Assembly: GCF_029027585.1 (NCBI RefSeq)
Contig: NZ_CP093397.1
Coordinates: forward strand, 434,001 to 498,000
From: Sulfurimonas sp.
GTDB lineage: Bacteria > Campylobacterota > Campylobacteria > Campylobacterales > Sulfurimonadaceae
DNA: 64,000 bases
Reading direction: 5' to 3'
Below the pieces are notes generated by a model. That model saw only the letters and a program-made list of their open reading frames with translations, ran no database searches and was not told the origin of the DNA. A program made the position numbers and the translations under genes. Positions 32,602-63,019 of the stretch are shown piece after piece. Numbering within the stretch: position 1 is the stretch's first letter; each line of letters starts with the position of its first letter.

Positions 32602-33096
32602 ATGGTCAGAAGAAATCTTAAAAAAATAAGTAAAAGTGAAAAACTAAAAAAGTTTATAAAAAAATATAAAGTTCCGCCTGAGTACCTCTCAACAAATCGT
32701 AAAATGGTTTCAAAAGCAGTTTTCATAGGTCTTTTTATAGCTTTCATACCGATGCCTATGCAGATGGTTTTAGTATTAGCCATGATGCCTTTTTTTAAGT
32801 TTAATGTTCCCATCGCTCTTGCTATGTGTTGGTTAAGTAACCCTTTTACAATGCCTCCAATGTACTATATCGAGTACCTTACAGGCTCCTATATTTTAGG
32901 GAGTGAACCACTTTGTGTTGAGATGACTTTAGAGTGGTTTAGCGAACATCTTGATGATATTTTTATAGACTTGTATTTTGGAACTTTGATTTATGCAATA
33001 GTTGGTTCATTCAGTGGTTATTGGCTAGTAAATCATTTTTGGAAAGGCTCGGTGCATAGAGATAAAAAACTTCATCGTCATCATAGAAAAACTTAA
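32602..33096 (+). CDS. DUF2062 membrane protein
   Basis: 164 residues, with the DUF2062 signature in the middle: FIAFIPMPMQMVLVLAM and LSNPFTMPPMYYIEYLTG. Three or four membrane segments. The DUF2062 role is unclear. It is divergent from the helicase and convergent with lgt (4-bp overlap). Confidence 0.85.
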   Translation: MVRRNLKKISKSEKLKKFIKKYKVPPEYLSTNRKMVSKAVFIGLFIAFIPMPMQMVLVLAMMPFFKFNVPIALAMCWLSNPFTMPPMYYIEYLTGSYILGSEPLCVEMTLEWFSEHLDDIFIDLYFGTLIYAIVGSFSGYWLVNHFWKGSVHRDKKLHRHHRKT

Positions 33097-33923
33097 TAAC
33101 GATTAACTATATCTCTACTATTATGTTTATAATAAAACCAAGCTAAAATACCTACAAAACTCATACCTAGGCTCATAACTTGACCTTGAGTTATCATGTT
33201 GCAACAAACATATCCAATTTGCACATCAGGAGCACGATATATCTCTGCAATAGCTCTCAGAATTCCATAACTAATAGCATAGATTAAAATTAGTTCTCCA
33301 CTAAATTTTTGATATTTTTTATAGATAAATACTACAAGAAAAACCCCAAAGCCTTCAAGAACAGCTTCATAAAGTTGAGATGGATGACGAAGAACACCAT
33401 CAACTAATATACCCCAACTAACATCAGTTTCACGACCTATAAGTTCTTGATTTAAAAAGTTTCCAATTCTTCCAAAAACAAAAGCTAAAGGAATAGAAAG
33501 AGCAACTAAATCCATAATCTTTCCAAAAGCAATTTTATGTTTTATGGAATAAATATAAGTGCTAAGTAAAAAACCTATAACTGCACCATGGTAACTCATG
33601 CCACGGATACCTACAAATTCACCATTTTGAAATGGGTTAAAAATTTCCCAAGGATGAGTAATATAATACATTGTTTGAGTATCATAAAAAAGAATATAAC
33701 CCAATCTCGCGCCTAAAATAACCCCAATCTCTACATATATAAAATAGTTATCTAAATCTTTACTTTTAAAATCAAGTTTATCTTTTTTAATAAATGCTTT
33801 ACCTATAAAGAAAGCACTCACAAGGGCTAAGACATACATGATTCCATACCAATGTACAGGAAAAGAAAATATGTAAAAAGCTATTGGGTCAAAGGTATCG
33901 TATATATAATTCCAGTTATTCAT
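33093..33923 (-). CDS. lgt: Prolipoprotein diacylglyceryl transferase
   Basis: 276 residues, seven membrane segments. The Lgt signature GRIGNFLNQELIGRETD is present, along with HPSQLYEAV and MSYHGAVIG. It adds diacylglycerol to the Cys of lipoproteins in the inner membrane, and would act on the lipoproteins encoded elsewhere in the window. The RhuM-PLD gene of the defence operon ends 34 bp upstream of its start. Confidence 0.95.
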   Translation of the reverse strand: MNNWNYIYDTFDPIAFYIFSFPVHWYGIMYVLALVSAFFIGKAFIKKDKLDFKSKDLDNYFIYVEIGVILGARLGYILFYDTQTMYYITHPWEIFNPFQNGEFVGIRGMSYHGAVIGFLLSTYIYSIKHKIAFGKIMDLVALSIPLAFVFGRIGNFLNQELIGRETDVSWGILVDGVLRHPSQLYEAVLEGFGVFLVVFIYKKYQKFSGELILIYAISYGILRAIAEIYRAPDVQIGYVCCNMITQGQVMSLGMSFVGILAWFYYKHNSRDIVNRY

Positions 33924-33956
33924 TATTTGTTTTCCTATTTCTTATTTTCTTTTATA

Positions 33957-34793
33957 CTACAGTGTTTTTATAATATTAATACTGTCAATATCAATCTTAC
34001 TAAATGCAAAAACTTTATTGCCTAAGTCCTTCAAACTAGCCCCAATATGATAAACTTCATTGTCATCTATTATCATAAATCTATCATGGAAGTTTTTAGT
34101 AATCTTTACATGTAGATTATTGTATTGTTTATTGTATTTTTGTACATCTAGCTTTAACTGTTTTGATATTGATTGAGTATAGATGATTATATGTATATTC
34201 TGATTTTTAGACAATAATGTCAATACTGATTCATCAATGTAATTATCTATTAATACAACTGATTTTTTAGCATTTTTAATTATCTCAGATACAAATAGAT
34301 AAGCATCAAATATTTCTCCTTGGAAAAATATCCCTTGCTTTATTTCTATTGTATTATTTTTAATATGTGATTTTAAAAGAGTCATATCATTCTCTAATGA
34401 TTGTAACCTTTGTTGGGTTATCTTTTCTCTATTTATAGCATAACCATTTTGAATATAGTTTTTCAATACAGATGTAGCCCACTGTCTAAATTTTGTAGCA
34501 GTAATCGAGTTTACTCTATAGCCAATAGAGATAATCATATCAAGATTATAATGCTCTACTTCTCTTTGAACCTCTCTGTTTCCCTCTTTTTGAACTACTC
34601 TAATTCTTTGAGTAGTTGGATTTTTATCTAGTTCTTTTTGCTTATAGATATTTTTTATATGATAAGTTATATTATGAGATTCTACACTAAAAAGTTCCCC
34701 TAATTGCTTTTGTGTTAGCCACACTGTTTCTTTTTCTATGGATACATTTAATTCTAGTTCACCATCGTTGTATGTTATTAAGTCATTAGTCAT
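33957..34793 (-). CDS. RhuM-family DNA-binding protein fused to PLD-like domain
   Basis: 278 residues. The N-terminal part (1-120) matches RhuM-type proteins: VWLTQKQLGELFSV, HITYHIKN-like, ATKFRQWATSVLKNYI. The C-terminal part (150-278) has a phospholipase-D-like pattern: VVLIDNYIDESVLTLL, then NFHDRFMIIDDNEVYHIGAS. The usual HxK is HDR. It overlaps the nuclease gene by 8 bp and is the last gene of the operon. It could be a nuclease, sensor or regulator; activity is not shown. Confidence 0.8.
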   Translation of the reverse strand: MTNDLITYNDGELELNVSIEKETVWLTQKQLGELFSVESHNITYHIKNIYKQKELDKNPTTQRIRVVQKEGNREVQREVEHYNLDMIISIGYRVNSITATKFRQWATSVLKNYIQNGYAINREKITQQRLQSLENDMTLLKSHIKNNTIEIKQGIFFQGEIFDAYLFVSEIIKNAKKSVVLIDNYIDESVLTLLSKNQNIHIIIYTQSISKQLKLDVQKYNKQYNNLHVKITKNFHDRFMIIDDNEVYHIGASLKDLGNKVFAFSKIDIDSINIIKTL

Positions 34794-35535
34794 TAGTATT
34801 GTTCTTTATTGTATCACCACTTAATATTTTCATAAATGTTTTATTTCTATTGTCAGCATCAAATGCAATAGATGTATAATCCAAAAAATTTATTATTATA
34901 TTTGTAGCATGACTATATTTATAATAGATGGGATACTTACTATTAGTAGGAATTGTATTATATTCATCCAGTCTTAAATCTCGTTCAGTATCTGGATTAA
35001 AACTTAAAAAAGCATAAGCCCATATTCTAATTTTATTATTAAATTCTCTACTATGATTTATGTAATCTGCATAACTTCTCAATTGTCTTTGTGCTTCTGC
35101 TGGAGTTATTTTTTCATCTGGTCTTTTAAGTTCTATAATTACAATATCTGTAATTTCTTCTTTTTCATAAGTATTTGATACTATACTTAATATATCTGGT
35201 TTAAGTAAGTTTTCACTTAACTTTGGAAAAATCACTTTTAGCCTAGCTTCACTAAATACTTTATCATAACTCATAAATCTATCATCAAAAAGCCATAGGT
35301 TATTACTTTTATAATTGCCTTCTTCATCTTTAGTATATTGTTTCATAAAAAGGTTATGAATCTCTTTTTCAATTACTTTTTTATCTGTAAGTGCTTTTAA
35401 CCTATCAATAGTCACTTGTCTATCAAAAATATACTCTGCTAATTCTGCTTGTGTTATTATTGACAACTTTTCTTGATAATCAGCATCCACATTATTTTTG
35501 CTATCTCTGATAAAAATTTTATCATCTTCTAACAT
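34786..35535 (-). CDS. PD-(D/E)XK-type nuclease
   Basis: 249 residues. The core motif reads KPDIL with Asp114, then IVIIELKRPD with Glu135 and Lys137, the classical D...ExK nuclease site. TPAEAQRQLRSYADYI after it matches the quartet helix of these folds. The start overlaps the GHKL gene by 7 bp; one added A in the A7 run just before it would fuse both into one protein of about 605 residues. So it may be the C-terminal domain of the GHKL protein. Confidence 0.82.
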   Translation of the reverse strand: MLEDDKIFIRDSKNNVDADYQEKLSIITQAELAEYIFDRQVTIDRLKALTDKKVIEKEIHNLFMKQYTKDEEGNYKSNNLWLFDDRFMSYDKVFSEARLKVIFPKLSENLLKPDILSIVSNTYEKEEITDIVIIELKRPDEKITPAEAQRQLRSYADYINHSREFNNKIRIWAYAFLSFNPDTERDLRLDEYNTIPTNSKYPIYYKYSHATNIIINFLDYTSIAFDADNRNKTFMKILSGDTIKNNTND

Positions 35536-36596
35536 TTTTTTAGCATTTCTTTTAATGTTTCATAGTCCTCATAATTATCATTATTTTGTAAATAATATGC
35601 TAAAAACGGAACATCATCTAAAGCTTTTTTACGGCTTTCTTTTGATAATTTATCTATATCTATATCATTATCTTTTGCAATTTGTTTAATTTGAGTTTTT
35701 AGTTCAGTCTGTATTTCTGTCCAAGATAAATTATGAAATATATCATCATTTCTTTGTTTGCGATATATTGAAAAATCATCTCTTGTTTCATTTACATTAT
35801 TATCAAAATAATTAGAGGATAAAAGAAATAATATATTAACTTTTTTAAAAAACTTAAATTTTTTACTACTATCTAAATAACTATTTTTTATAACAACCCT
35901 ACCACCAGCACAATAAAAACCATCATAATTCTTTATATTATCATCATTTATAATATAATCTAAAGTAAAATCATATGTGCCTATTTTAAATTTATTAGTT
36001 TCAAATTTTGGAATATCATCACTTTTAATATCAAACTGTTTTATTGAGTTTTCATATACATCTATTGTTATAGATAATTTTTTATCTTTTAATAATTTAA
36101 AATAAGCTAAAAAATGGTCATTCAATTCATCTTTATACTTATCATAATCAACTACAAATTTAACTTTTGGTTCTTTAAAATTTACGGTTGTAATATCTAC
36201 TTTTTTTAAATTATCTTGAATATTAATATCTTGACTAATAATAAAATTAATTTTTTTATCTAGACTTTCAATATCAACTTTATCAAAAACTTTTAAATAG
36301 AAGAACCTACCTATCCCTTTACATCCAAATTCTTTTTTATGTTGCGTTTTGTATTCTTTAAATGATTTGGTATTTATATCATTAAATCCATCTCCATTAT
36401 CTTCTACAACTATAGAATCAATATATTTTTTTGTATCATTTAAATCTAACGCACCTTGCATGAATTTTATTTTTATCTTTGTTGCATTTGCTTGTAAAGA
36501 GTTCGTTATAGCTTCATTTAAAACTTGTTGCCAAGAAATAGTTTTTAAATCATTCACAATACTTTCAATATTTGTATCTACTTTTCCACTACTCAT
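35529..36596 (-). CDS. GHKL-type ATPase (HATPase_c_3-like)
   Basis: 355 residues. The Bergerat fold is clear: N-box NEAITNSLQANAT (26-38), G1 VVEDNGDGF (64-71) and G2 GCKGIGRFFYL (91-97). This is the MutL/MORC/Hsp90 type. It ends in YETLKEMLKKC, overlapping the nuclease start. The stop may result from a one-base deletion in a poly-A run. In type I-like operons such ATPases may act as sensors or switches; the role here is inference. Confidence 0.85.
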   Translation of the reverse strand: MSSGKVDTNIESIVNDLKTISWQQVLNEAITNSLQANATKIKIKFMQGALDLNDTKKYIDSIVVEDNGDGFNDINTKSFKEYKTQHKKEFGCKGIGRFFYLKVFDKVDIESLDKKINFIISQDINIQDNLKKVDITTVNFKEPKVKFVVDYDKYKDELNDHFLAYFKLLKDKKLSITIDVYENSIKQFDIKSDDIPKFETNKFKIGTYDFTLDYIINDDNIKNYDGFYCAGGRVVIKNSYLDSSKKFKFFKKVNILFLLSSNYFDNNVNETRDDFSIYRKQRNDDIFHNLSWTEIQTELKTQIKQIAKDNDIDIDKLSKESRKKALDDVPFLAYYLQNNDNYEDYETLKEMLKKC

Positions 36597-38026
36597 AACT
36601 TTCTCCTATAAATTCCATAGCCAAATCTTCCCCATCTTCTATAGCAATCTCAACAGCTCTTTTTGCTACTTCTAAAAGTTGTTTTGATGCCTCTTTTAAT
36701 TTAAAAGATTCTTTTATTTTTTCTTCTATTTTTGTTTGGATTGTATCATTAAGAATAGGTATTAAAACTTCTCCTATTTCAGATGGTTTCCAATGTTTGA
36801 TTATAGAACCACCTGCATCTCTTTGGCTTTGCATTTGTACTACTAAACTATTTAATACAAGTGTTAAGTATTCAGGTAATACTTTATCATTTTTTTATAG
36901 TTAGATGAAGCATAGCACCAGAAGTTATGATATTTGTATCTTTTTTAATATTATAAGCTATTCCTACCGTTCCATCTTTTGATAATAAAATAGTATCTAT
37001 TTTTGGTTGTAATTTTTTTAATATTTCTTTATCAAATAAATTCTCTGATAAGTGAATATCAGGTTCAGACAAGCCAAGTTTTGTAAGATTTGAAACTCTT
37101 ATAAATGGTATACCAGTTGTTTGATAAGCTTCACTTCCTGGCTCTATAGATTTATTTATATTTACAATATTATCTAAACTATCATAATTGATTTTTTTGA
37201 TACTTTCTACTATTTGGTTGTACTTAGGCTGATAATATTCACTATCAAGTCGCCCACTATCTCCGAAACTTTCACTAAATGTTTTTATAGCTATTTTTTC
37301 TTTTGATGGTTCAAAATCTAATAAATCAAGTTCTTTTAAAAGTAGTTCTTCTGATTGTTTATAAAGTTTTTTGCTTTCTTCTAGTTTTTGATGTGATGAT
37401 ATTACTAATTCTTCAATTTTTGTTTGAAATATATTAGAAAAAATAGGAACTTGTACCCTTCCTACTTCTTCACAATTTAAATTAACTTGTTCAGTCTGTC
37501 TCGATAAATAATAAAGATATTGTTTTCCATAGTATGAGTTTAAATAAATATTTATAAAATCAGGATTAATTTTATTTCTATCAACTCTAATAAGTGCAAT
37601 ATTTTGATTTATATTAGCAGGTAAAATATTTTCAGATATTTTTGTAGCACGACCTACTATTTTTTGAGTTGCACCTATAATGGTAACAATAATATCATCT
37701 TTTTTTAATTGTGTTCTTTTTATATCATCATGACCTAGTTGTGATAAATAATGATCAAAATGTGGTTTAATATAGTTGTCTCTTAAATTATTAGTTTTTA
37801 TAAATTTAATTGTACCTCCATAAAAAGCTTCTTTACTCATTGATGGAGTATGTCCAGTTGATATATTCTGAGTTACTAAACTTGATAAATCCATTAATTT
37901 ATGCTTTTCTAAAGTTTGTTTTATACTCAAATATATTAATCTATAATGCTCTGCATCTATTCTAAAAATATTTTTATTTATAGTTTCACTAAGTTTAAGT
38001 TCAATAGCTTCAAGCCCATCTAACAA
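36589..38026 (-). pseudogene. hsdS: HsdS specificity subunit with a poly-A frameshift
   Basis: Two target-recognition domains linked by a helix, as in type I S subunits: TRD1 with ISTGHTPSMSKEAFYGG and helix LVISSHQKLEESKKLYK; TRD2 with IKKINYDSLDNIV and the final helix KEASKQLLEVAKRAVEIA. Frame 1 stops after LTIKK; removing one A from the A7 run at 36890-36896 continues as NDKVLPEYLTLVLNS into the second frame (about 478 residues). It sets the DNA sequence that is methylated or attacked. It overlaps the GHKL gene by 8 bp. Confidence 0.88.
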
Positions 38027-38058
38027 AGCATTATATTTTACTTTATCAAATGGGCTAT

Positions 38059-40081
38059 CTACTTTCCCGAAAAACTCAAATTCTCCTTTTTAGCAAACTC
38101 GTTAAAAGCTTCTGCTATTCCGTCTTGTGTAACACCATCATGATTAAATAAGTCATGCTTTACTATTAAGTGGTCATGGTCATCAAGTCTATTTGTACCA
38201 TCTTCATTTTTAACATATATTTTTTCGCCACTATTATCTTTTGATGATTCTTGCATGGTTGCAAAGAAGATATTATAATCATCTTTTTTAGGGCAAAGTC
38301 TATCATCCCATTTTTGCACTATCAAAACACTTGTTTTAGTTCCTGTATGAGGTTTAAATACATTTCCATGAAGTCCAACAACGGCTAAAATTCTACATTT
38401 ATCAGCAATAAAATTTCTTACAAATTTATCACTAGAGTTATTAAATCTTCCTTGTGGCAAAACAACAGCCATACGACCACCACTTTTAAGCATATCAAGA
38501 TTTCTTTCTATAAAAAGTATATCTCTGGAAATTTTACTATGCCATCCTTTATGTATTGATTCTTCATTAATGGATGCTCCTGCTCGTTTTACCATTTTTT
38601 TACCTAAATCATATCGATGTATAATACGGCTTTCTTTTATATCCCCTGCAAAAGGTGGATTTGCCATTACTATGTCAAACTCAAACTCTTTGTTTTCATT
38701 TTTTATACTTCTTAACTTTTTAAGTCTTTTCCAACCCTCAAAATAAGTATCTTGCCAAGCTTCATCTTTTGTATTTTCGTCCCATCGCTCAAAGTCCAAT
38801 GAGTTCATATTTAAAACATTTGTATGACCATCTCCAGCTATGATATTTAACATTCTAGCAACTCGTACAGTCTTTTTATCAAAATCAATACCAAATACTT
38901 TTTCTTTTACATACTCTAAAGCTATAGGATGTTTTGCTTCTGCGGTTAATAAATCAGATGATGGTATACCTAATCTTTTATATATCTTTTTCCATACTTC
39001 AAAAACGGTATGAATAGGAAAACCACAACTTCCAGATGCTGTATCCATCATATATTCATTTTCTTGTGGATTCATTATTTTTACACACATATCTATTACA
39101 TATCTTGGAGTGAAGTATTGACCTTTTTCACCTTTTGCATTTTTATTTACCAAATACTCAAAGGCATCATCTATAACATCAAGATTTGAGTTAAATAATT
39201 TTATATCTTGAAGTGAACTAACACATACAGATAAATGTGATGGTGTAAGTTCTATAGTCTCATCATCTTTAAATATACCATTCCAATATTTTCTTGCTTG
39301 TAAAAATATATCCTCAATTTTCTCTTTTAATTCTCCATCACTTTCACCATAGTTCCTAAACTCAAGATTTTCAGTTAATCCTCTTGTATTTTGAAGCTCA
39401 TCAAATAATTTTATAAATATAAGTTTAAATACCTCTTCAAAAACATCTACTCCTGCATTTGCTAAAACTTCATCTTCCATATCTAAAACGATACTTTTAA
39501 GACTTCTTTTTTGAGTTTTTAAAATATCTTTTTTGATTAAATCTTGTATAGTAAATTTTTCTTGTAAAACATCTCTTAATGATTTGTTTTGCTTTTGGAA
39601 TATCAGGAATAGGTTCAAAATAATTAGGGTCTTTTCTATGATAATAAATAGTTTGTTCACCATTACTCCATATAGCAATAGTTGCACCCGTAGAGTTACA
39701 ATAACTCTTTAACTGCTCTTTTCCATCTTTTAATTTTGGCTTTTTAACTTCTATGACGATATAAGGAACAGTAGGCTGTATCTTGTCCATGATAACTATA
39801 TCAGCCCGTTTTACTTCTCTTCCAAAATGTACTGCATATTCTATTTTCATACGACTATAAGGATAATCATAATCTTTATGAAGTGATAATAAAAATAATT
39901 GTCGTACTAACTCTTCAGGCTTCACTTGAATATCTTTTTTTCTTACTAAACATTTTATAAAATTAACTTCTTTCCCTCTTAATTCTTTTTGGAAAATCAA
40001 TGATTCTATCTCTTGGATTTGCTCTGTTGTAAACTGTGTTAGTTTATAGTTAGTATCTTTTAGTATTTCACTTATTTTCAT
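38059..40081 (-). pseudogene. hsdM: N6-adenine methyltransferase with N-terminal HSDR_N domain, frameshifted
   Basis: Corrected length about 673 residues. Residues 1-165 are an HSDR_N-like nuclease domain, with KRADIVIMDK (Asp94) and YIVIEVKKPK (Glu111, Lys113). The rest is an HsdM N6 methyltransferase: KGQYFTPRYVIDMCV, DTASGSCGFPIHTVF (motif I) and MANPPFAGDI (motif IV). One A too many in the A4 run at 39587-39590 separates the frames (PKA then NKSLRDVLQEKF). Such fusions take the place of part of HsdR; no separate HsdR translocase is present in the window. Confidence 0.88.
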
Positions 40082-40107
40082 AGTTTAACCTCTAATTTGT
40101 AAATGTG

Positions 40108-41388
40108 TTATTTCCTCAAAGCTTCAGCAATAAGCTCAATAGGGTTTTTAAATATGGTTGTTGATTCATTACCCATAGAGTCATTTATCTGCATACGACA
40201 AGCACTACACTCAGCACTTACGATATCTGCTTTTGTATTTTTTATCATAGCTGCTTTTGGAAGTCCAGCAGCTTTTGCAAAGTGATATTTCTCACTCTGC
40301 ATAGTCACCCCACCAAATCCACAACAAGAATTTGGGTCACTCATCTCTACAATATTGTAATTTTTACTTATCAAGTTTCTTGGTTCTTCATGAATACCTT
40401 GCATCTTTTTTGCATGACAAGGATCATGGTATGTAACTATTTTAGTATCTTTTTTTCTTGTTGCTAAAAGTTCTTCTAGATGCGTATGATGTTGGAGCCA
40501 TTCTGTAGCCATAAAAATTTTATCTTTAATCGCTGTTGCCCTAGCCTTCCACTCAGGTTGGTCATGAAAGTAGTGTTCGTAATCAATTTTAAGCATTGCA
40601 GAACAGGTTGCTTCTGGGACTATAATAGCCTCAACATCACTACTAAAACTCTCAAAATACTCTATATTAAACTTAGCGTTATAATCAACTGTATCAAAAT
40701 CGCCCGTAAAATAAGCAGGAGCAGAACAACATTTTTGACTCTTTGCTAAAAAAGCATCTATTTCTAAATGTTTTAGTATCTCTAAAAGTCCTTCTCCAAC
40801 ATCTTTGTAATTGTAATTTCCTAAACAGCCTATAAAAATTGCTACTTTTCTTTTTCCACCATTATTTATATTTTCAGGGTGAGAATTTAAAAATGATGTT
40901 TTTGTAAGACTTGGAAGAAGTCTATCTGCTTTTAACATTGGAAATGAAAAACGAGAGTTCATAGAGTCTATGTCAGCTTTTATCTTAAATCCACAAGTTT
41001 GAAAAACCCAACCTAACTTAAAAGCTAAATCATTCATCCATCTATGACGAAGCAAGAGAAAAAAAGCTCTTTTATACCAAGCAATACCAAACTTTTTTGC
41101 TATGTCTGAACGGACTTGCTCTATTACCATATCTGTTGGAAGTGATTTTGGACAAACCTCAACACAAGCAGTACATAAAAAACAACTCTCAAAAATCTCT
41201 TTTACATTTTCATCTAAGTCTAGGTTTCCTCTTTGATACGCCCCTAAAAGGTCTAAAAAACCACGAGGAGAAGTTACCTCATCTGGATTTACTCTGTAAA
41301 TAGTACAAACAGGAACACACTTTGCACATTTAATACAGTCATCAGTTATATCTATATAATTGAAAATTTCCTCTGTTGTTTTACTCAA
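40108..41388 (-). CDS. Glycolate oxidase-type iron-sulfur subunit (GlcF/GlpC-like)
   Basis: 426 residues. Two [4Fe-4S] motifs: CIKCAKCVPVC and CFLCTACVEVCP, each followed by CCG-type domains (GCLGNYNYKDVG, DPNSCCGFGGV). Belongs to the (Fe-S)-binding oxidoreductase family of GlcF, GlpC and LldE, which pass electrons from a flavin subunit to quinone. The flavin partner is not in the window, so the substrate is open. It lies 3 bp after hemN. Confidence 0.87.
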   Translation of the reverse strand: MSKTTEEIFNYIDITDDCIKCAKCVPVCTIYRVNPDEVTSPRGFLDLLGAYQRGNLDLDENVKEIFESCFLCTACVEVCPKSLPTDMVIEQVRSDIAKKFGIAWYKRAFFLLLRHRWMNDLAFKLGWVFQTCGFKIKADIDSMNSRFSFPMLKADRLLPSLTKTSFLNSHPENINNGGKRKVAIFIGCLGNYNYKDVGEGLLEILKHLEIDAFLAKSQKCCSAPAYFTGDFDTVDYNAKFNIEYFESFSSDVEAIIVPEATCSAMLKIDYEHYFHDQPEWKARATAIKDKIFMATEWLQHHTHLEELLATRKKDTKIVTYHDPCHAKKMQGIHEEPRNLISKNYNIVEMSDPNSCCGFGGVTMQSEKYHFAKAAGLPKAAMIKNTKADIVSAECSACRMQINDSMGNESTTIFKNPIELIAEALRK

Positions 41389-57888: not shown

Positions 57889-58993
57889 ATTAACTCTTTT
57901 AAAATATTTTTTAATTTCTCAAACTGTAACTCATTTGAAAATTTCTCATTACACTTATCTTGTCCAGATTTTGCAATATTTAATGCTAATTCTTGATTAT
58001 TTATTAGTTTCTCAATCGAAGATGCTAAGCTCTCATAATTTTGATTCTCAAATAGTAAACCTGTTTTTTCATCATCTATTATCTCAACAACCCCACCGCT
58101 GTTTGCACCAATAACAGCAGTACCAACCTGCATAGCCTCTATAAGTACAAGTCCAAAAGTTTCTTTCTTAGATGCAAGTACAACAGCGTCACATATTTGA
58201 TAAAAATGATGTGGATTCTTCATAAAACCTAAAAAATGTATATTATTTTCTAGTTTTCTTTCTCTAGTATCTTTCTTTAGCATCTCCAAGTAAGATTCCT
58301 CCATAGCATGACCAACAAAATAAGCATGGACATTCATACCTTGTTTAACTAAAACATCAACAGATTCTATTAGTAGATGCTGTCCTTTAGCCTCATTTAT
58401 ACGGCCAACCATTCCAAGGTTAAAACTATTATCATTGAAATTTAGTTCTAACTTTAACTTATCTACTTCATCAGCATCTAGCATCTCAGGTTTATCTGAA
58501 CCCATATACAAAACTTCAACTTTTGGTCTTATATCTTGAGGTATAAATTTCTCTAATTGACCTTTAACCTGATAAGTTACCGTAGTAACAAATCCATATT
58601 TTTATACATTAGTCTATGATAAAAGTCATTTTTAAATCTAGTCATGGTCATATTTCTTGTTTGTATTATTTTAGGCTTTCTTTTAGATAATAGTTTCGAT
58701 AATACTACAAAAGGGATATCTTTTGTCCAATGCATATGAATAGCATCTACCTTTTCTTCATCAATTATTTTAGCTAATTTTTTTGCAGCACCAAACATAA
58801 AAAGGTTAGATGTTTTTTTAATTTTTATATATTTATAATTTTCATCATAATATTGTTCTAATTTCGAGTCTTCGTTAATAATACTAATGGCATGAAAGTC
58901 ATCACTCAAAGCTTTTGCAGCTCTTACCATATAAAGTTCAAGTCCACCTAAATCAGGTGACATGCAAAGTTCAATAACTGTTTTACGATTCAT
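57885..58993 (-). pseudogene. GT4-family glycosyltransferase with a T-run frameshift
   Basis: N-terminal frame 58993-58577 (MSPDLGGLELYMVRAAKAL, HMHWTKDIPFV) and C-terminal frame 58511-57885 (MVGRINEAKGQHLLIES, ASKKETFGLVLIEAMQVG) belong to one gene. One more A at 58590-58592 on the + strand would join them through VTTVTYQVKGQLEKFIPQD. About 369 residues. LPS sugar unknown. Confidence 0.87.
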
Positions 58994-62273: not shown

Positions 62274-63019
62274 TTGTCACATAAACTTATTTTAAATCCA
62301 AAATTCAATACTTTTGAAGAAACTCTATTAAATATTAAAGATATATTTAACTCTTCAGATGAGAGCATACACAAAGCAAGAAATGAGCTTAAAATCATTG
62401 AATTAAACGGATAAAGTGTGTAGTTAAATCATTTAAAATCCCTCATATTGTAAATAGAATTGCTTATACCTTCTTTCGAGACGGCAAGGCAAAGAAGTCA
62501 TACCTAAATGCAGTGAAACTTATAAAATTAGAAGTTAATACTCCTGAACCGATTGGCATCATAGAGTTCTTTAATAATGGTTTATTAAGTGAGAGTTATT
62601 TTATATCTATATATGAGCCTTATGACATTACTATTCGAGAGGTTTTTCATCATAAAGTAGAAAATTATACAAAAATTTTAAAAGAGTTTGTAAAATTTAC
62701 ATATGAGATACATCAAAAAGGGGTATGGCATGTTGATTATTCTCTTGGAAATATTCTTATTACTAAAAATAAAGACAATTCATACAGATTTTCTTTAGTT
62801 GACATTAACAGAATGGAATTTAAGAATATTTTAGCTCTTGATGGTTTAAAAAATTTCAACAAGTTCTGGGCAAAAGATGATAATGATTTAAATACCATTG
62901 CAATCGAGTATGCTTCTCTGGCAAAGGTAAGTGAAGATAAAGCGATAGAAATAGTAGTGAATGAAGCAAAATCTCTAGAAGCAAAAGTTAATTTAAAAAG
63001 AAAATTAAAGGGAAAATAA
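62274..63019 (+). pseudogene. LPS kinase (WaaP/KdkA/InaA-like), frameshift
   Basis: From TTG 62274 the frame reads MSHKLILNPKFNTFEETLLN and KIIELNG, then stops; one more A after GGA at 62409-62411 continues as IKCVVKSFKIPHIVNRIAY. The kinase site is HQKGVWHVDYSLGNILIT (HxD and N) and VDINRMEF (metal Asp). About 248 residues. Phosphorylates Kdo or heptose of the LPS core, by family. Start codon not certain. Confidence 0.8.

Follow-up and report, generated by a model that had tools for sequence, protein, structure and literature searches.

The operon at positions 33957–40081 of the window, a 64,000-nucleotide stretch of a Sulfurimonas sp. genome (GCF_029027585.1; contig NZ_CP093397.1, positions 434,001 to 498,000), is probably a type IIB-like restriction-modification (R-M) system in which a GHKL ATPase-linked, Shedu-like nuclease and a RhuM-family protein are embedded, i.e., a composite of an R-M shell and independent cargo. 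The interval between glcF and lgt is filled by leftward (minus-strand) open reading frames (ORFs), and these carry the domains which the earlier note on this DNA had named:

33924..40107: insert separating glcF and lgt, which are directly adjacent in G012, G021, G024, G011 and G019
39497..40081, minus strand: RM gene, 5′ part, HSDR_N_2 (PD-(D/E)XK) nuclease domain (Pfam PF13588, E=2.9e-28); the true reading leaves this frame near 39590
38059..39687, minus strand: RM gene, 3′ part, gamma-class N6-adenine DNA methyltransferase with NPPF (N6_Mtase, E=6.4e-32); aligns with relatives from about 39590
36589..38071, minus strand: specificity (S) subunit gene (PADLOC Specificity_I); ORF 36887–38026 with a continuation at 36592–36873 in another frame
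35529..36596, minus strand: GHKL-nuclease gene, N-terminal part, GHKL ATPase and S5-like domains (HATPase_c_3, E=1.2e-9)
34786..35535, minus strand: GHKL-nuclease gene, C-terminal part, PD-(D/E)XK nuclease with Shedu-like fold; other frame of the same 608 amino acid (aa) homologue (G107)
33957..34793, minus strand: RhuM-family protein, PLD-like (HDRF..D) at its C-terminus (Virulence_RhuM, E=3.9e-25)
40108–41388: flanking glcF
33093–33923: flanking lgt

As the HSDR_N and methyltransferase ORFs (194 and 542 aa) match two parts of one protein of ~690 aa in relatives, and the GHKL and nuclease ORFs (355 and 249 aa) correspond to one undivided ORF of 608 aa in the Sulfurimonas relative G107, matching its halves with 89% and 69% identity, the operon consists of four genes, three of them split by frameshifts. 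Five separate genes, with GHKL and nuclease encoded independently as proposed earlier, are thereby ruled out; intact GHKL-nucleases in G163, G106, G360 and other genomes are 595–603 aa long. The HSDR_N-methyltransferase described as one gene is a single ORF in relatives, but here it lies in two ORFs in different frames. The reported overlaps of 7–8 bp are present at all three joints; the one between the nuclease and RhuM measures 8 bp (34786–34793). As relatives possess a single fused GHKL-nuclease ORF, the 7 bp shared by GHKL and nuclease (35529–35535) are a product of the frameshift, and the 8 bp between S and GHKL, which are the same in G107, only appear once S is read beyond its stop.

The assignment of the shell to type IIB is carried by the RM protein. 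In relatives, an N-terminal HSDR_N_2 domain (PF13588) is followed by an N6 methyltransferase with NPPF, so that a PD-(D/E)XK nuclease precedes a gamma-methyltransferase within one chain, which in the window is split near 39590. This corresponds to type IIG/IIB enzymes, which are gamma-methyltransferases with an N-terminal cleavage domain (PMC3874165), and in particular to BcgI and BsaXI, in which a separate S subunit is added, a 2:1 complex is formed and no translocase is needed (PMC3874165, PMC11997821). A separate S with two recognition domains (Methylase_S; two stretches in the S protein of G107) is likewise encoded, although in frameshift-split form in the window. The pair also exists as a natural single-polypeptide version, with RM and S fused in one chain of 1073 aa (L192:2110-5328), as is also the case for some type IIG enzymes (PMC3874165). 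In the full-length relatives, the RM nuclease signature KRADIV...IIE(V/L)K shows little or no variation, and the E..D..E-V-K of the window is common to 14 full-length relatives. By inspection, the window ORF shows an E, D, E-x-K pattern corresponding to the N-terminal residues E73, D90, E105 and K107, which BsaXI requires for cutting (PMC11997821). A profile search of the PDB returned RM.BsaXI as the closest solved structure (129 bits), followed by the methyltransferase chain of 7vru (65 bits), whose PDB name gives no R-M type, and the type I subunit EcoKI M (58 bits); with the single RM sequence the scores were 91, 54 and 50 bits, respectively.

Some observations weigh against this reading. 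The match to BsaXI spans the methyltransferase only, and the nuclease domain, which was not matched to BsaXI by sequence, is linked via Pfam HSDR_N_2 and its motif and not via structure. PADLOC files RM as a type I methyltransferase (MTase_I). Finally, with three frameshifts in 6 kb compared to 0.3 expected, the operon may be dead in this strain. It further differs from BsaXI in the length of RM (about 690 aa versus 916 aa), and from both BcgI and BsaXI in having a frameshift-split RM in this genome and cargo genes attached. Two-sided cutting and an (RM)2S assembly would be expected by analogy for this operon.

The earlier note had seen a type I-like recognition and methylation half without HsdR nearby; this does not amount to a type I system that has lost its nuclease. 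A separate M without a nuclease domain, as is typical of type I, was not found, since HSDR_N_2 is fused to the methyltransferase in relatives, and no HsdR helicase/translocase is encoded together with M and S in the operon or in the loci read. None of the operon genes gave a helicase or translocase domain, in agreement with the note. The HSDR_N domain fused to the methyltransferase appears to be the cutter, as in BcgI/BsaXI-like type IIB systems, and with this built-in nuclease no translocase motor is needed.

It could be argued that RM and S form an ordinary type I M/S pair that relies on an HsdR supplied in trans from another locus. The PADLOC label of RM and the two hsdR genes of the window genome would fit with this. 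However, these two genes, at 96 kb and 1107 kb, each belong to their own complete type I locus with M and S, and the nuclease motif of RM is conserved. Among 397 Campylobacterota genomes, 31 carry the RM gene. Of its loci, 20 were read, two of which are incomplete or degraded, and none showed a recognisable HsdR- or Res-like gene next to RM. Moreover, five of the 18 searched genomes with the RM+S pair (G228, G433, G257, G360 and G284) gave no match for hsdR (TIGR00348 or PF08463), and G228 and G433 are complete single-contig genomes. As the pair has no hsdR neighbour and persists in complete genomes without detectable hsdR, it does not depend on HsdR; an hsdR gene that always travels with the operon, which the earlier note had named as evidence against its own view, did not emerge, and service in trans is ruled out as a general explanation and is highly improbable for this operon. 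In the EcoAI-like type I locus of the window genome (L145:5188-8037), two BRO/antirepressor-like ORFs are situated between M, S and R.

Genes located between or after RM and S in the loci read code for Fic, GmrSD_N with HEPN, DUF3800, AlbA_2, RhuM, a DUF4062-like start and others. In Campylobacter-type genomes (L197, L198, L199, L203), RM and S are found at one conserved chromosomal site and the cargo between them differs, which makes this site a swap-in hotspot.

The GHKL-nuclease is one protein of a described kind, namely paraMORC3-like with a Shedu-like nuclease fold. The GHKL residues E28, N32, D66, G68 and G70 as well as the nuclease residues E410, D468, E489 and K491 (E-D-ExK) are the same in all 13 of the diverse homologues compared. 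In the AlphaFold model of the G107 protein (pLDDT 81, pTM 0.62), residues 1–312 match structures of MutL, MORC and Hsp90 with Z scores of 14–15, which together with the HATPase_c_3 match and the invariant residues identifies the GHKL ATPase motifs and the S5-like domain of paraMORC3; the C-terminal domain with its E-D-ExK residues represents the restriction-endonuclease-fold domain of the same architecture (PMC2292703). For the nuclease domain modelled alone (pLDDT 85), the top structural matches after VIA re-alignment were four SduA/Shedu entries, 8ps4 (Z 10.8, rmsd 4.8, 172 aligned), 8ps5 (10.7), 8ti9 (10.4) and 8ti8 (9.9), with the next non-Shedu entry at 8.7; other nuclease folds that were matched include BspD6I and FokI. 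By itself, Foldseek matched nothing to this model with E below 0.001, Shedu being ranked first only by the VIA re-alignment, and searching the PDB by sequence with just the nuclease domain yielded no match. Pfam SduA_C (DUF4263, PF14082) was weakly matched by one of 14 members (E=0.011) and by none of the others.

With its GHKL ATPase, middle S5-like domain and C-terminal PD-(D/E)XK domain with E-D-ExK, the protein resembles VcSduA, a type I-D Shedu (PMC12137116), and paraMORC3 (PMC2292703), whereby the likeness to VcSduA is one of architecture and fold. VcSduA, a GHKL-type Shedu, protects against phage and requires both its ATPase and its nuclease site (PMC12137116), and R-M neighbourhoods of paraMORCs were already reported in 2008 (PMC2292703). 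Unlike these two, the clade in the operon is repeatedly embedded in several R-M types and has no model of its own in the Pfam, PADLOC and NCBIfam libraries searched; such operons are therefore under-annotated.

The family was found in 22 of 397 sampled Campylobacterota genomes (about 5%) and in a few other phyla, and its partners vary considerably. In Helicobacter and Campylobacter relatives (L010, L131, L134–L137) it accompanies type III mod/res plus RhuM, and at other loci type I M-S-R genes (L132, L125), a type IIG-like RMS of 1307 aa (L133) and IIB-like RM+S pairs (window, G107, G199), the latter in G433 and G475 with an additional OLD-like ATPase and Mrr; at L105 it occurs with RhuM alone, and some loci contain no R-M system at all. 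In a tree of the GHKL-nucleases, the window and G107 group together (100/100) beside one member linked to type I and another that has only RhuM, and the class of the partner changes four times, compared to a minimum of two. These varied partners and the switching between them identify the GHKL-nuclease as a portable add-on; a GHKL ATPase with a nuclease does look like an added effector, in line with the earlier note. No match was obtained in 50,697 phage records that would point to a phage origin, and matches on plasmids reached only 22–26% identity. In Rheinheimera (L109:9980-13479), a GHKL-nuclease gene is followed by genes for DarT and a macro-domain (DarG-like) protein.

The RhuM-family protein is a known PADLOC candidate defence protein, with a full-length match to PDC-S05 (PDLC04879, residues 2–276, 344 bits); its C-terminus is read as PLD-like by motif only. 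RhuM stands beside the GHKL-nuclease in 11 of 20 loci, compared to 1 of 18 RM+S loci without GHKL-nuclease (Fisher P 0.0014), a purely descriptive comparison as most cases belong to one Helicobacter/Campylobacter clade, loci that two collections gave for the same genome were combined manually, and L010, which is among the 11, was scored by eye from its N-terminus. RhuM within or adjoining an R-M locus is also known from PADLOC PDC-S05 and from PrrC/RhuM neighbourhoods (PMC3710099). Here, by contrast, RhuM is next to a GHKL-nuclease, a pairing also seen in type III operons and, in one case (L105), in the absence of R-M.

Based on the domain architecture, the conserved active-site residues, the absence of hsdR, the recurrence of both modules elsewhere and the insertion site, a mode of action can be proposed, for which we infer subunit stoichiometry, cutting mode, ATP gating, cargo trigger and anti-phage activity. 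By analogy with type IIB enzymes, two RM chains and one S subunit would form a complex that methylates host DNA at a bipartite site, and the nuclease domain of RM would cut unmethylated DNA at fixed positions near this site, without ATP-driven translocation. Judging from VcSduA and MutL, the GHKL-nuclease may dimerise on ATP like MutL or MORC and, once triggered, its Shedu-type nuclease may cut phage DNA as a second line, with RhuM-PLD as a further candidate defence protein in the cargo. The cargo would be an independent second layer which shares its expression with the R-M shell.

The earlier note had instead suggested an effector controlled by methylation state. On this view, the GHKL-nuclease would be the effector arm of the R-M complex, replacing HsdR, with RM+S sensing unmethylated sites and licensing a GHKL clamp and the Shedu nuclease. 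The 8 bp overlap of the S and GHKL genes in both Sulfurimonas genomes and the order M-S-GHKL in three HsdR-less operons (window, G107, G199) are consistent with such a coupling, and MutL-type GHKL proteins are known to control nucleases (PMC2292703). Nevertheless, RM brings a nuclease of its own, a GHKL gene is absent from most RM+S loci, GHKL-nucleases are likewise found alongside type III and type I systems that possess a helicase, or without R-M, and VcSduA works alone (PMC12137116), which renders this role rather improbable. We likewise consider it unlikely that the GHKL-Shedu nuclease is wired to the shell in the more general sense of a MutL-like ATP clamp which is loaded or licensed by RM+S at unmethylated sites, the same clamp serving types I, III, IIG and IIB. 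An independent cargo remains the preferred reading.

In this assembly, the operon is probably not intact, as RM, S and the GHKL-nuclease gene each contain a one-base frame change. The break in RM is found at AAAACAAATC near 39590. The S gene is broken at an A7 run near 36890, its ORF stopping at 36887 and the last ~94 codons (36873–36592) lying in the other frame; accordingly, tblastn with the intact S protein of G107 gave matches at 38071–36899 and 36873–36592. Compared with G107, the GHKL-nuclease gene lacks one base near 35570. Programmed frameshifting or phase variation is unsupported, since the relatives are unsplit and two of the three sites are without a long homopolymer.

The strain may carry a decayed relic, with all three frameshifts real, the operon inactive and at most RhuM expressed; we regard this as quite possible, if short of probable. 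Three frameshifts in 6.1 kb compare with 0.30 expected from the assembly background, which was measured on 458 kb of sequence (Poisson P about 0.004), and the two sites outside long homopolymers point in the same direction. On the other hand, over about 100 kb of this genome 5 of 93 orthologues are split relative to G012, compared to 0 of 83 in the reverse comparison. The assembly therefore carries a background of indels and splits conserved genes as well, and the A+T-rich local sequence could raise error rates. The dN/dS values against G107 are low (GHKL 0.14, nuclease 0.26, methyltransferase 0.11, HSDR_N part 0.19), and judging from these ratios purifying selection was acting before the breaks. 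The three frameshifts may represent assembly error, decay, or both. As three of the four genes are affected, activity of the operon in this strain is doubtful unless the breaks are sequencing errors; a relic would bear on this activity and not on the identity of the system. Two more genes of the window (57891–58993 and 62274–63016) are split across frames relative to relatives, which supports a background of assembly indels, or accessory-gene decay.

The shell shows a distant resemblance to the methylation-associated defence system (MADS), RM to MAD2 and S to MAD5. With the ORFs as read, however, the scores (283.5 and 89.7 bits) are far below the family cut-offs (720 and 400 bits, respectively), which rules out membership, and further MADS components are unmatched in this four-gene operon. 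A comparable layout is that of DarTG2 in a type I system, where cargo is likewise embedded in an R-M shell, between or after its M and S genes (PMC12255303), although here the shell is type IIB-like and the cargo GHKL-Shedu.

The direct adjacency of glcF and lgt in five relatives confirms the island-like insertion that had been proposed for this locus. The GC content drops from about 0.31 in the flanks to 0.24–0.28 across most of the insert, within which no mobile-element gene was seen. Elsewhere in the window genome, at about 1749000–1752000 of G000 C1 (L022/L023/L147), a uvrB-like gene has a nearby second, partial copy of its N-terminal part, which is a tandem partial duplication or a misassembly.

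All parts of the operon are of described kinds, while the combination of a type IIB-like R-M system, a GHKL-Shedu nuclease and RhuM is new; neither this four-gene combination nor its recurrence was found in the literature searched, which covered few subscription papers. The apparent anomaly of a type I-like system without a motor is removed, as a common RM+S pair of the Campylobacterota, filed as type I in databases, has the architecture of BcgI and BsaXI. In addition, GHKL-Shedu nucleases are hereby documented as swap-in cargo of several types of R-M operons. This makes it testable whether the cargo defends independently as a second system or acts as a nuclease under the control of the R-M complex. 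Should the latter, wired arrangement be true, the system would be an enzyme without a translocase, equipped with a second nuclease that spreads, and the clamp would be a general accessory of restriction systems.

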